A stretch of 64,000 nt of DNA, from the NCBI RefSeq assembly GCF_003116015.1, contig NZ_LGQZ01000018.1:62001-126000 (forward strand). Reading direction: 5' to 3'. Source of the DNA: Azospirillum sp. TSO22-1. Lineage in GTDB: Bacteria; Pseudomonadota; Alphaproteobacteria; Azospirillales; Azospirillaceae. Position numbers and translations under genes: made by a program. Below are positions 30,924-36,683 of the stretch, one piece after another (within the stretch, counting starts at the first letter, position 1; each line of letters begins with the position of its first letter). The notes beneath the pieces were generated by a model, which was not told where the DNA came from, ran no database searches, and saw only the letters and a program-made list of their open reading frames with translations.

Positions 30924-31226
30924 ATGTCGGAGAAGCTGGTCGGCGCCAAGCGCCAGGGCGCGCTGCGCGAACTGCACGGCTGGTCGGAAGTGCTGGAGCG
31001 CGACGCCGTCCGCAAGACCTACCACTTCGCCGATTTCCCCACCGCCTGGGGCTTCATGACCCAGGTGGCGCTGCTGGCGGTCAAGCACGACCATTGTCCG
31101 GAATGGTTCAACGACCTGGGCCGCGTCGAGATCATCCTGTACACCCGCGCCGCCGACGGCGTGACCGCCAAGGACATCGAGTTCGCCCACCGCCTGGACG
31201 CCATCGCGCCGGCGCACGACCGTTAG
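30924..31226 (+). CDS. phhB: 4a-hydroxytetrahydrobiopterin dehydratase (pterin-4a-carbinolamine dehydratase)
   Basis: The 100-aa protein has the family motif HDHCPEWFNDLGRVEI (residues about 54-69), with the essential His pair preceding the PEW core. It dehydrates the pterin carbinolamine formed by aromatic amino acid hydroxylases and may act as a moonlighting dimerisation factor. No phenylalanine hydroxylase gene is nearby. GGGGGAGGAAACCC gives a strong ribosome binding site. Its stop codon overlaps the convergent folC stop by 3-4 bp. Confidence 0.94.
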   Translation: MSEKLVGAKRQGALRELHGWSEVLERDAVRKTYHFADFPTAWGFMTQVALLAVKHDHCPEWFNDLGRVEIILYTRAADGVTAKDIEFAHRLDAIAPAHDR

Positions 31227-32500
31227 TCGTTCTCCGCCAGCACGGTCCCGGCGAGGTACAGCGAACCGCAGATCAGCGCGCGGCCCCGGTCCGCCTGCGT
31301 GATGGAGGCGAGCGCCGCGGCGGTGTCTACGGCCGGTTCAGCGTCGGCGATGCCCGCCGCGCGCGCCGCCGCCGCCGCGGCTTCGGCCGGCAGCGACGCG
31401 TCCTCGCCGGGGATGGCGACGGCGCGCAGGCGGCGGACGTGCGGCGCCAGCGGGCGCAGGAACTCCGCCGGCTCCTTGCTGCCCAGCATGCCGAACACCA
31501 GGTCGAGCGGCCGGCCGTCCTGCGCCGCCCAGACGGCGGCCTGCACGGCCAGAACCTCGCCGGCGGAATCGTTGTGGCCGCCGTCCAGCCACAGCTCCCA
31601 GCCCGGCGGCAGGCGGTCCACCAGCGGGCCGCGGGTCAGCCGCTGCAGGCGCGCCGGCCAACTGGCCCCCGCCACCCCGCGCGCCGCCGCCGCGTCGTCC
31701 ACCCGAACCGGCAGATGCTCCAGGCAGGCCAGCGCCAGCCCGGCGTTGAGGATCTGGTGCGCGCCGGCCAGCCCCGGCGGCGGCAGGTCGAGGCGGCGGG
31801 CGGCGCTCTCGAAACAGAAGCCCCCCGGCGACGGCTCGGCCCGCCAGAAAGACACCGGGGCGCCCACCGCGGCGGCGCGCTCGGCCAGCACGCGGGCGAC
31901 CTCCGCGTCCGGCTGCGGGGCGAACACCGCCGGCACGCCGGGTTTCAGGATGCCGGCCTTCTCGCCGGCGATGGCGGCCAGGCTGTCGCCGAGGAACTGG
32001 CGGTGGTCGTGCGAGACGCGGGTGATCGCGGTGACCGCCGGGCGCTCGATCACGTTGGTGGCGTCCAGTCGCCCGCCCAGCCCGGTCTCCAGCAGCACCA
32101 CGTCGGCCGGCGTGCGGGAAAAGGCCAGGAAGCCGGCGGCGGTGGTCACCTCGAAGAAGGTGATCGGCGCGCCGCGGTTGGCGGCCTCGCACTCCTCCAG
32201 CAGGGCGGTGAGGTGGTCGTCGGTGATCAGGGTGCCGGCCAGCCGGATGCGCTCGTGGAAGCGCACGAGGTGCGGCGAGGTGTAGACGTGCACGCGCAGC
32301 CCCGCCGCCTCCAGCATGGCGCGCAAGAAGGCGACGGTGGAGCCCTTGCCGTTGGTGCCGGCGACGTGGACCACCGGCGGCAGCCCCTCGTGCGGGTCGC
32401 CCAGCGCGGCCAGCAGCCGGTGGATGCGGTCGAGCGACAGGTCGATGACCTTGGGGTGCAGCGCCGTCAGCCGCTGGAGCACGGGGTCGGAGAGGGCCAT
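31223..32500 (-). CDS. folC: Bifunctional folylpolyglutamate synthase / dihydrofolate synthase
   Basis: The 425-aa Mur-ligase-fold enzyme adds Glu residues to folates and makes dihydrofolate from dihydropteroate. The P-loop is HVAGTNGKGSTV near residue 43 and the second fold block ETGLGGRLDATNV lies near 135. The C-terminal half has LDGGHNDSAG near 312. It is the last gene of the leftward trpB-trpA-(two inserted genes)-accD-folC set, separated from accD by a palindromic repeat. Confidence 0.96.
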   Translation of the reverse strand: MALSDPVLQRLTALHPKVIDLSLDRIHRLLAALGDPHEGLPPVVHVAGTNGKGSTVAFLRAMLEAAGLRVHVYTSPHLVRFHERIRLAGTLITDDHLTALLEECEAANRGAPITFFEVTTAAGFLAFSRTPADVVLLETGLGGRLDATNVIERPAVTAITRVSHDHRQFLGDSLAAIAGEKAGILKPGVPAVFAPQPDAEVARVLAERAAAVGAPVSFWRAEPSPGGFCFESAARRLDLPPPGLAGAHQILNAGLALACLEHLPVRVDDAAAARGVAGASWPARLQRLTRGPLVDRLPPGWELWLDGGHNDSAGEVLAVQAAVWAAQDGRPLDLVFGMLGSKEPAEFLRPLAPHVRRLRAVAIPGEDASLPAEAAAAAARAAGIADAEPAVDTAAALASITQADRGRALICGSLYLAGTVLAEND

Positions 32501-32691: not shown

Positions 32692-33669
32692 TTACCGCGC
32701 CTCTTCCCGCACCGCCTCGGCCTGCGCGGGGGTATGGTCGGCGGCGTCGGCCTGGACGACGTCGCCGTCCTCCTCGCCGTCGGCGCCGACGGTGTCCAGC
32801 TCCAGCGGCGCCTTCACCGCCTTCGGACGCGTCAGCAGGTCGAGCACCCGGATCAGCGTCGCCCGCAGGTCCTTACGGTGCACCACCATGTCCACCATGC
32901 CGTGGTCGAGCAGATACTCGGAGCGCTGGAAGCCCTCCGGCAGCGTCTCGCGGATGGTGCTCTCGATGACGCGCGCGCCGGCGAAGCCGATCTGCGCGCC
33001 CTTCTCGGCGATGTGGATGTCGCCCAGCATGGCGAAGGAGGCGGTGACGCCGCCGGTGGTCGGGTCGGTCAGCACCACCACGTAGGGCAGGCCGGCCTCC
33101 TTGACCATCTCCACCGCGATGGTGGTGCGCGGCATCTGCATGAGCGACAGGATGCCCTCCTGCATGCGCGCCCCGCCCGAGGCCGGGACGACCACCAGCG
33201 GCGCGCGGCGCGCCACGGCCTGGCGGGCGGCGGCCAGCAGCCCCTCGCCCACCGCGATGCCCATGGAGCCGCCCATGAAGCCGAAGTCGAAGGCCGCCAC
33301 CACGGCCGGCAGGCCACCCATGGTGCCGTGCCCGACGACGATGGCGTCGTTGCGGCCGGTCTTGCCCTGGGCTTCCTTCAGGCGGTCGGTGTAGCGCTTC
33401 TGGTCGCGGAACTTCAGCGGGTCGACCGGCGTCTTCGGCACCTCGACAGCGTGGAACTCGCCGCCGTCGAACAGCATGCCCAGCCGCTTCAGCGGCTCGA
33501 GCCGCATGTGGAAGCCGCAGTGCTGGCAGACCGAGAGGTTCTCCTCCAGGTCGCGGTGGAACAGCATGGCCTCGCAGCTCGGGCACTTGTGCCAGAGGTT
33601 GTCGGGCACGTCCTTGCGGGCGACCAGCGCACGGATCTTCGGACGGACGTAGTTGGTGAGCCAGTTCAT
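32692..33669 (-). CDS. accD: Acetyl-CoA carboxylase carboxyltransferase beta subunit
   Basis: The 325-aa subunit transfers CO2 from biotin to acetyl-CoA in the first step of fatty acid synthesis. The N-terminal zinc ribbon is complete (Cys29, Cys32, Cys48, Cys51 in KCPSCEAML and CQHCGFH). The crotonase-fold core is seen in [14 protein letters not shown] and SGGARMQEG. The last ~45 residues are an acidic, Ala-rich tail. The ATG overlaps the stop of the upstream HEPN-like gene (ATGA), so accD translation is probably coupled to that inserted gene. Confidence 0.96.
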
Positions 33670-34142
33670 GGTGTCGCTTTCAGTTCCTTGATGAGCGCCT
33701 CGAGTTCCGCGGCGATTTCCGCCGTGTCGAGACCACTCTGCAGGATTTCGCCGTGTGCGATCCTGCTTCGCAGCCGATAGAGTTCAGAGAGCCGGTTGTA
33801 GACCCGCCCACCCTTCTTGCACAGCAGGGCGATACGGTCCATGAGGTCGCGCGGGCCGCGCAGCTTGCGCCCGGTCGGGCCATGCTCGCCGATGAGGTCC
33901 CAGGCGCGTTGCGAGTCCCAGTCTGAATCGTTGCGCTTGCGCTGAATCAGCTCATCGCACAGCTGATTGATCTCGACCTCAGCCTGCGACCACAGCAGAA
34001 CAAAATAGGCGTTCGCGTTGAACTGCCGCAGATTGGCCCAGGTGTTGGCCCACTCCGCGTCACCGGGTTCTTCGTCTGCAAACTCCCTAAAATGCCCGTC
34101 CGTGACGGCATGGGCGTTCCAGATCGCGCGGAAATGGATCAC
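33666..34142 (-). CDS. HEPN-like protein, possible RNase component of a two-gene unit
   Basis: The 158-aa protein is helical, with [21 protein letters not shown] (about 41-60) and a C-terminal helix with Arg125-x4-His130 in LRSRIAHG. An R-x4-6-H motif ending in 'HG' after a helix is the hallmark of HEPN domains, many of which are RNases in toxin-antitoxin or defence systems. I infer the domain by eye. The GTG start overlaps the upstream partner gene's TGA, and its own TGA overlaps the accD ATG. G+C is visibly lower than in trpA and accD. Alternatively it is a non-catalytic HEPN protein. Confidence 0.65.
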
Positions 34143-34597
34143 CGCGGCTCTCCCAAAAGGGATTGCAGCGCGGCAGCATCGAAGGGAATGCCGCCGATCG
34201 GTCCCCACATGGTGTAGAGTCGCCAATGCACATCGCCGGGCGCGGCTCCCTTGTCGAGCAGCCGTGCCGGCCATTTCATCCCCTGGATCATGATCCGTCC
34301 GCGCGTGAAGTACACCCAGCGGGCATCAGGAACGAATCGCAGAAGGCCGACTCCGGCACGGCGAATTCCGAGGCTGGGCAGGCGGTACGCCGGAAGACCA
34401 TGGGACCACGTCATGCGCTCGTCCATGAGCACGGTTCTCGACAGGTCGACCTCATAGCCCTCGTCGGCCGGCAGCCAGCTGCGGATGGTCTCGAACAGGT
34501 CGTTGATGCGGCGTGTCCAGTCCTCGGTCTCGGCGCGCACCTCGTCGGCGGACGGAATCCGTTCCGGCTCGCCGTCGTCGATGTTTGCAATGGTCAT
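34139..34597 (-). CDS. Hypothetical partner of the HEPN-like protein
   Basis: The 152-aa protein begins MTIANIDDGEPERIPSADEV with an acidic N-terminus and continues with DERMTWSHGLPAYRLPSLG and DARWVYFTRGRIMIQGMKW. I recognise no family. It contains many aromatic residues and appears soluble. GAGGCGGCGG lies just before the ATG. It is co-oriented and 4-nt-overlapped with the HEPN-like gene, and lies 38 bp after trpA. Being the first gene of a coupled pair, it may be the antitoxin or a regulatory partner, but that is inference. Confidence 0.6.
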   Translation of the reverse strand: MTIANIDDGEPERIPSADEVRAETEDWTRRINDLFETIRSWLPADEGYEVDLSRTVLMDERMTWSHGLPAYRLPSLGIRRAGVGLLRFVPDARWVYFTRGRIMIQGMKWPARLLDKGAAPGDVHWRLYTMWGPIGGIPFDAAALQSLLGEPR

Positions 34598-34635: not shown

Positions 34636-35465
34636 CTAGGTACGCGCGCCACGCACCCCAGCCGCCAGCTGCCGGACGAAGCCCAGAACGTCGGGCACCA
34701 GCCTCGGCTTCGGCACGCCGTCCTCGCCGAGGTTCGCGGCCACCCTGCTGACGATGGCGGACCCCACCACCGCCGCGTCGGCGACGCGGGCGACCGCGGC
34801 CGCCTGCTCCGGCGACTTGATGCCGAAGCCGACCGCCACCGGCAGGTCGGTGTGGCGCTTCAGCCGGGCCACCGCCTCGGCCACCGCGGCGTCGCTGGCG
34901 GACGCGGCGCCGGTGATGCCGGCCACCGAGACGTAGTAGACGAAGCCCGAGGTGTTCTTCAGCACCGCCGGCAGCCGCGCGTCGTCGCTGGTCGGCGTGG
35001 CGAGGCGGACGAAGTTCACCCCGGCCTTGAGGGCGGGGATGCACAGTTCCTCGTCCTCTTCCGGCGGCAGGTCGACGACGATCAGGCCGTCCACGCCGGC
35101 GGCCTTGGCGTCGGCCAGGAAGCGCTCCACGCCGTAGCTGTAGATGGGGTTGTAATAGCCCATCAGGATCACCGGCGTGTCCTGGTCCTTGGCGCGGAAA
35201 TCGGCAACCAGCTCCAGCACCCGCTTCGTCTTCGCCCCGGCCTTCAGCGCGCGCAGGCCGGCGGCCTGGATCGCCGGGCCGTCGGCCATCGGATCGGTGA
35301 AGGGCATGCCCAGCTCGATCAGGTCGGCGCCGGCCTCGGGCAGGCCCTCCAGCACGGCGCGGCACGTCTCGTGGTCGGGGTCGCCGGCGGTGATGAAGGT
35401 GACGAGGCCGGCGCGGCCTTCAGCCTTCAGCGCCGCGAAGCGCCTGGCGATGCGTCCGGTCTCGC

Positions 35466-35469
<4 letters not shown>
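34636..35469 (-). CDS. trpA: Tryptophan synthase alpha subunit
   Basis: The 277-aa TIM-barrel subunit cleaves indole-3-glycerol phosphate to indole. The catalytic Glu52 is in [10 protein letters not shown] and Asp63 in MADGP; the phosphate-binding GFGIKSPEQ lies near 212. The GTG start is chosen because it overlaps the trpB TGA by 4 nt; the longer frame upstream lies in trpB. Indole is channelled to TrpB in the alpha2-beta2 complex. In many relatives the next gene is accD; here two extra genes intervene. Confidence 0.97.

Positions 35470-36683
<1,214 letters not shown>

Follow-up and report, generated by a model that had tools for sequence, protein, structure and literature searches.

Why two small genes of low G+C content should stand between trpA and accD is the question raised by a 64,000-nucleotide (nt) stretch of DNA from Azospirillum sp. 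TSO22-1 (contig NZ_LGQZ01000018.1, positions 62,001 to 126,000 of the forward strand; hereafter the window, numbered from its first letter). The gene order trpA-accD-folC is documented (PMC2395257). According to the list of open reading frames (ORFs) of the window, the minus strand carries trpB-trpA-P1-P2-accD-folC, where P1 and P2 denote the two genes in question. A sequence-only reading had taken them for a toxin-antitoxin or defence-like pair, with a HEPN RNase as the second protein, wedged unusually into a core biosynthetic operon. The explanation favored here, to which we assign a probability of roughly 60%, is a two-gene module of an unnamed kind, composed of a HEPN protein and a partner, of the toxin-antitoxin or abortive-infection type, whose two genes are exchanged together at one fixed position among core genes. 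According to this proposal, P2 would be a HEPN-fold, metal-independent RNase of the toxin type, and P1 its dedicated partner, produced just before P2 through translational coupling. P1 would keep P2 inactive, or gate it, until phage infection, stress or some other trigger released it; free P2 would then cut RNA and stop growth. Complete P1-P2 cassettes would be swapped between trpA and accD, probably by homologous recombination through the flanks, and some lineages would lose the pair, one such loss having left a remnant of P2 right before accD.

The trpA-accD junction and its two small genes

Homologues of trpA and of accD are each found in 81 of the 82 genomes of the family, while P2 matches occur in 19 and P1 and P2 together in 18, the nineteenth match being a truncated P2 alone. 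P2 adjoins trpA directly in all 19 genomes and lies between trpA and accD in all 18 whose contig reaches accD. The 79 contiguous junctions comprise 17 full pairs (junction length 893-1018 nt), one truncated pair (G073), 20 P2 remnants and 41 junctions without a trace; left out of this count are G046 (no trpA match), G053 (whose trpA and accD lie 34 kb from each other) and G074 (which has the pair, but on a contig that stops short of accD). All 20 remnants belong to the genus of the window, whose 45 junctions divide into five full pairs, 20 remnants and 20 others. Within the family, in short, this junction is where the pair regularly resides, and the pair is neither a one-off wedge nor a constant member of the operon. 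The notion of an unusual insertion thus has to be revised, and the comparison of junctions among relatives that the sequence-only reading proposed also showed that the pair is no fixed part of the run.

Remnants were sought by local alignment to intact P2 genes, with the last 20 nt masked and 100 shuffles each, in 58 of the 62 junctions that lack a full pair; the other four (G001, G052, G056 and G057) were too short and are counted among the 41 traceless ones. The 20 remnants scored 82-122, as compared with shuffle maxima of 28-37, and none of the 100 shuffles reached the observed score in any of them, nor in the truncated pair of G073 under the same test. Decay at the junction has accordingly occurred at least twice, once in the remnant lineage and once in G073. 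The 587-nt junction of L094 (G015) contains no P2 remnant; by eye, it holds an open stretch resembling a GNAT-type acetyltransferase gene. Judging by this junction, genes other than the pair may also lodge there.

In the window, P1 (34139-34597, minus strand) is an ORF of 152 amino acids (aa) with an ATG start, and P2 (33666-34142, minus strand), of the HEPN type and probably an RNase to judge from its sequence and predicted fold, has 158 aa and a GTG start that overlaps the P1 stop by 4 nt (34139-34142), an arrangement from which translational coupling is expected. A 202-aa version of P2 was set aside because its start would fall within P1. At its other end, the TGA stop of P2 shares 4 nt (33666-33669) with the ATGA start of accD, an overlap not mentioned in the sequence-only reading. 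Depending on the start codons that we picked, the P1/P2 junction among 18 pairs is a 4-nt overlap in 15, an 8-nt overlap in two and a 2-nt gap in one. The 4-nt overlap of P2 and accD is found in all 17 family members that have both the pair and accD. Upstream of the pair lies trpA (34636-35469, minus strand; start codon inferred) and downstream accD (32692-33669, minus strand); next to these flanks are trpB (35466-36683, minus strand) and folC (31223-32500, minus strand).

The low G+C content and the shared orientation and overlap of the two genes were seen correctly from the letters alone: the G+C content of the pair is 63.0%, the mean of the window being 71.8%, and a value as low as this is reached in only 17 of 424 windows of 450 nt, those of the pair among them. 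In the 17 family members with the pair and both flanks, the mean G+C at third codon positions (GC3) is 0.72 for P1 and 0.69 for P2 versus 0.87 for trpA and 0.88 for accD, and both genes of the pair are lower than the flanks in every member. Such a composition, together with a full pair in just five of 45 genus members, might suggest a single recent chance insertion into a core operon. That account is extremely improbable, being already contradicted by the shared site and the remnants: the same junction holds the pair in 18 other genomes of the family (a truncated copy and another interrupted by the end of its contig included), remnants lie in 20 further genomes, and the lower GC3 is common to all 17 pairs examined.

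P2 as a probable HEPN protein and P1 as its proposed partner

P2 is very probably a HEPN protein, on the combined basis of its motif, weak profile matches of its relatives and its predicted fold, all of which lend support to the HEPN assignment made from the letters. The matches in the family yielded 18 full-length sequences, the window's own included, and their alignment has five invariant residues, A45, E55, L107, R125 and H130. The last two belong to the motif R125-S-R-I-A-H130 (33753-33770, minus strand), in which His130 is followed by Gly. The HEPN RNase signature is Rx4-6H, with a residue after the Arg that is typically polar and mostly N, D or H, according to PMC3710099. The pattern R[NDHS]xx[AV]H[GE] is matched by 22 of 23 P2 sequences (the exception, L071, reads RCEIAHG), and the residue after the motif Arg is Asn in 20 of the 23. 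A second acidic residue of the HEPN type is supplied by E55, which is also invariant in an 11-row set, although the Ex3[KR] form typical around it is not kept (N59 in the window's P2). As to background, R[NDHS]xx[ACV]HG occurs in two of 300 stop-to-stop ORFs of at least 100 aa in the window, P2 itself fitting the pattern, and in 13 of 591 ORFs at other loci, a figure that includes P2 homologues without separating them out.

When the 18 members were scanned individually against Pfam, the three families matched most often with E no higher than 1 were HEPN_RiboL-PSP (PF18735; 15 of 18 members, best E 8.6e-4), HEPN_MAE_28990 (PF18737; six of 18, best E 2.6e-3) and HEPN_Swt1 (four of 18). These matches are weak, and the window's P2 is not among them, so that of the profile and structure check proposed in the sequence-only reading the profile half gives weak matches of relatives only. 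HEPN proteins do lead the structural matches. The AlphaFold2 (AF2) model of P2, built from 10 sequences, has a mean predicted local distance difference test (pLDDT) score of 84.0 and is all-alpha, with six helices. R125 lies in the fifth of these (residues 113-129) and H130 just beyond its end; the Arg-x4-His-Gly signature is therefore present as described, but the helix that carries it is the penultimate one rather than the C-terminal one. In structural comparison by VIA Z-score (Z), HEPN proteins come top, the first 18 rows spanning Z 9.2-6.9. Thirteen of these are HEPN proteins by title or by the accessible parts of the literature (HepT/HEPN toxins, AF0298, MtlR), another four (HI0074, 1wwp, 1wty and YutE) we take to be HEPN proteins as well, and one (3mfn) is a structure of unknown function.

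P1, said from the letters to have no recognisable family, indeed has none in Pfam, NCBIfam or PADLOC (2023 release), and its matches in PHROGs are at chance level (E 0.25 and above). The 18 P1 members gave only stray weak matches to Pfam, without a frataxin match at E up to 1, without a nucleotidyltransferase match and, with NCBIfam and PADLOC also searched for the window's P1, without a DNA-binding family. LptD, with matches at E 0.4-0.9 judged to be chance, was rejected as the identity of P1. Searches of Protein Data Bank (PDB) sequences with P1 and P2 returned nothing credible. Five residues of P1 are invariant in the alignment of 18 (W27, R30, L34, P90 and W125). The AF2 model, again built from 10 sequences, is confident (pLDDT 87.9) and predicts an alpha/beta fold with one long helix, several strands and, at the C terminus, another helix. 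Its best structural match is the frataxin CyaY (4lp1), with Z 9.6, a root-mean-square deviation (rmsd) of 2.7, 96 of 104 residues aligned and 9% identity. A complex I subunit (Z 7.4) and Mediator rows (6.6-7.5) score on a par with the other frataxin rows (7.3-7.5), and a best Z of 7-8 is typical of models that have no clear match. P1 likely shares a fold with frataxin without being a member of the frataxin family, and no iron function is claimed for it. Both genes are under purifying selection, so that their function is kept: the ratio of nonsynonymous to synonymous substitution rates (dN/dS) in four pairs of relatives is 0.05-0.26 for P1 and 0.07-0.34 for P2, the synonymous rate (dS) being saturated in several.

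The pair bears a partial resemblance to several known systems. Like the HEPN/MNT systems (HepT-MntA, type VII), it is a small overlapping two-gene unit with an Rx4H-containing HEPN protein, and the P2 model aligns with HepT (6m6u) at Z 9.2, rmsd 3.5, over 116 residues. HepT carries HxY at its motif His, and the minimal nucleotidyltransferase partner carries a GS..DxD motif. P2, on the other hand, has HGE after the motif His, and P1, unlike MntA, is predicted to be frataxin-like rather than a nucleotidyltransferase and lacks a conserved GS..DxD, with scattered loose matches in five of 24 sequences. The families that Pfam matches best among the relatives of P2, HEPN_RiboL-PSP and HEPN_MAE_28990, suggest a different comparison. 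For MAE_28990 and MAE_18760, the portion of PMC3710099 available describes contexts with ParB nuclease, DNA methylase, ParA/Soj, RES-NTD, Toprim-NTD and Schlafen, and a P1-like partner is absent from those it describes. The mannitol repressor MtlR also shares the HEPN fold predicted for P2 (3brj, Z 8.0). Finally, a couple of small co-oriented genes that overlap and are inherited together recall type II toxin-antitoxin systems, whose antitoxins commonly, though not universally, have a DNA-binding domain of the sort that family searches did not find in P1. Among the listed titles and opening parts of abstracts on HEPN proteins, HEPN toxin-antitoxins, trpA/accD/folC operons and defence exchange, most subscription papers lying outside this coverage, no description of the pair was found.

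Probable exchange and decay between conserved flanks

Topologies were compared for 17 genomes by the approximately unbiased (AU) test. The P1 data (p 0.33) and the P2 data (0.26) both accepted a joint P1+P2 tree. The trpA+accD tree was rejected by the P1 data (1.8e-4), the P2 data (1.1e-4) and the joint data (5.4e-45), and the pair tree was in turn rejected by the flank data (1.7e-5). These trees are consistent with joint inheritance of the two genes and show a history unlike that of the genes on either side. An example is given by G072 and G070. In 60-nt windows, their trpA genes are 93-100% and their accD genes 87-100% identical, whereas the cassette past its first 60 nt is 12-63% identical, and the switch in identity occurs near the P1 start and at the ATG of accD. 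In the pair tree, G072 clusters with G069, G071 and G075 (support 99), apart from G070. Similarly, G014 and G045 have a dS of about 1.9 in the pair versus 0.18-0.19 in the flanks; a smaller excess in the pair was observed for G067 and G070.

The differences might instead be only apparent if a fast-evolving pair had descended strictly vertically with many losses. Pair and flank trees do agree in part at the genus level, where the Azospirillum trio G006, G014 and G045 and two g3 genomes group alike, and G071 and G075 show no large dS excess (0.26-0.27 in the pair, 0.14-0.21 in the flanks). Yet strict vertical descent is highly improbable in view of the different cassettes between the near-identical flanks of G072 and G070, the dS of the pair in G014/G045, ten times that of the flanks, and the AU tests that reject the flank tree. 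Moreover, the full pairs of G014 and G045 are surrounded by remnant-bearing genomes in the family tree, which, here as for the change counts, has no support values. Homologous recombination via the conserved flanks would be the simplest mechanism of exchange. G006 has the pair and five compared neighbours do not, and no clear sign of imported flanks beside the pair was seen in G006: the 5' end of accD is 99-100% and the 3' end of trpA 88-98% identical to these pair-less neighbours, among which the 88% split in trpA occurs as well.

Another explanation holds that P2 is a non-toxic, MtlR-like HEPN protein and that the pair serves to regulate the trp-acc-fol run locally. The fixed site and the 4-nt overlaps that couple the pair to accD, as well as the presence of MtlR among the structural matches of P2, speak in its favor. 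We consider it unlikely, since related pairs occur at unrelated loci (see below), 41 of 79 junctions have no trace of the pair, the pair differs between the near-identical flanks of G072 and G070 and rejects the history of the flanks, and Rx4H is retained in 22 of 23 P2 sequences.

What remains of P2 after decay may bear on the expression of accD. As the start of accD overlaps the P2 stop in all 17 intact pairs, the ribosome-binding site of accD must lie within P2; in the window, it is probably held by the last codons of P2 (CTGAAAGCGACACC; 33670-33683, minus strand). All 20 remnants, among them L101 (G022), have an identical ACGGTTTACAA at the left edge and an invariant CGTTGAAAGGCGTTCC before accD, whereas the middle drifts. 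The 13 remnants of 161 nt have a mean identity of 97.5% between genomes; the trpA comparison run beside this figure was probably spoiled by frame shifts. Constraint across the whole remnant was considered and rejected, as only the two ends hold and the overall identity in deeper comparisons (0.65-0.79) about matches or falls short of the value at four-fold sites. In L091 (G012), a terminator-like hairpin (892-928; 15 pairs, 13 of them G-C) followed by CTTTTTT lies between trpA and the P2 remnant, with one such hairpin found against 0.5 expected from shuffles; accD may therefore have a promoter of its own there, possibly inside the remnant. A promoter-like sequence (TTTACA, 17 nt, TAC[GC]AC) is present in the eight remnants looked at, at a score that 18-48 of 200 base shuffles also reach and that is hence within chance; a promoter scan of G012 found none, and at the corresponding place in the window's own P2 just 7 of 12 letters match. 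A promoter within the remnant is accordingly no more than suggested by these letters.

Relatives of the pair and the nature of the module

Among 385 sampled genomes of the class, the same seven contain P1 and P2, only nine or 10 candidates having been scored in each genome. Outside the family, and with neighbours named by eye from ORF translations (as are all the integrase, fba, thiE, secG, tpiA, HU and GNAT names at other loci), pairs lie beside integrase-like genes (L064 and L065), between fba-like and thiE-like genes (L066), and, in a metagenome-assembled genome (MAG) of Hyphomicrobiales, between secG-like and tpiA-like genes on the opposite strand; one further pair is present in a Planctomycetota MAG. 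G443 has two P1 copies (L064 and L068) with a P2 match for one only, the other P2 appearing broken. A first scan of genome contigs with the window's P2 gave no match. In plasmid searches, the window's P2 again had no match, while the window's P1 and a distant P2 both reached the same single record. This is the conjugative plasmid pLVM1 of Methylobacterium sp. DM1 (L078, 4888-5700), on which a P1 homologue without a listed gene is followed by a frame-shifted, truncated P2 next to a transposase-like ORF; genes annotated as PIN and prevent-host-death are a few kb away.

Such a plasmid copy, close to toxin-antitoxin genes, invites the view that the pair is a classical addiction-type toxin-antitoxin system, selfishly retained and with no role in defence. 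An antitoxin gene followed by its toxin gene is the usual order, and the partner-first arrangement, small size and overlap of the pair agree with it. However, chromosomal decay (20 remnants and one truncated pair) and a broken plasmid copy are unlike strong addiction, and no DNA-binding family was found for P1, though none is required. Pure addiction is on balance a doubtful explanation, if the most credible of the alternatives. A phage-defence or toxin-antitoxin module fits better than a housekeeping function because of the exchange of alleles, the decay that left remnants and the integrase-like and toxin-antitoxin neighbours elsewhere, and the defence-like character suggested by the sequence-only reading is consistent with these features and with the shared history of the two genes.

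A search of 398 genomes of the phylum found, in 13 of them, a more distant family of P1-like proteins, related to P1 with a profile-profile probability of 96.8% (E 2.2e-10, 82 columns). Fifteen places from the search for this family, together with L181, make 16 distinct ones, L196 and L182 being one place counted once, and L190 and L194 are cut by contig ends. In 12 of the 14 testable places, an ORF with the HEPN motif R[NDHS]xx[ACVI]H[GE] lies directly downstream of the P1-like gene, in a census that took any open frame overlapping the downstream region and a pattern slightly wider than that of the background count. Ten of these partners match a second family with the consensus RNWLAHGRWW; the L181 partner is a P2 homologue, and that of L196 matches neither profile. 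Members of the second family, in the form R[NH]WL[AC]HGR[WN], include L183 2034-2669, L187 2018-2542 and L185 731-1264 (minus strand), all downstream of distant P1 homologues. The family has no Pfam match and no NCBIfam match above the cut-off; its putative HEPN nature is suggested by the motif. Among its members, the partner at L197 is recognised by the P2 profile too (E 4.8e-4).

Several observations weigh against an exchanged module of the toxin type. The window's P2 alone has no match in Pfam, NCBIfam or PADLOC, and after its motif Arg it has not Asn but Ser, which is polar yet outside the usual N/D/H trio. The first clearly unrelated structural row for P2 (Z 6.5) is tied with the lowest HEPN rows (6.9), and for helical bundles a Z below about 13 may reflect merely a common arrangement; Foldseek gave no match with E < 0.001 for either model (for P1, against PDB and viral models), so that the fold claims depend on the VIA Z-scores. 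With regard to history, the P1 data reject the P2-only tree (AU 8e-5), the converse not being rejected (0.083), and hence P1 and P2 may not always have moved together; given the partial agreement of the trees noted above, part of the history of the pair may be vertical, and G071 and G075 lack a large dS excess. Parsimony needs 10 changes for the full pair and places absence at the root of the family tree. This result does not establish the pair as ancestral, and the 41 traceless junctions may always have been empty. Scans of viral contigs found no relative of the pair, nor did a query of phage records made with one distant P2 only. Lastly, the P1-like genes at L191 and L200 have no HEPN-motif ORF directly downstream; these may be solitary partners or have lost their toxins.

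A bolder and quite tentative extension of the favored explanation would make P1 the founder of a new class of HEPN partner, a frataxin-fold antitoxin or sensor serving at least two HEPN-motif families across the phylum and beyond, the trpA-accD junction a dedicated site of interspecies exchange via essential genes, and the 3' end of a dead toxin a sequence kept in one Azospirillum lineage as the promoter and ribosome-binding region of accD. An unnamed partner family associated with more than one HEPN-motif family would offer a new and testable mechanism of neutralisation or sensing. The locus displays intact, swapped, truncated and fossil states among relatives, through which the turnover of a probable immunity module may be traced. 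Such turnover would take place within a core operon while accD, immediately downstream, retains its start signals.

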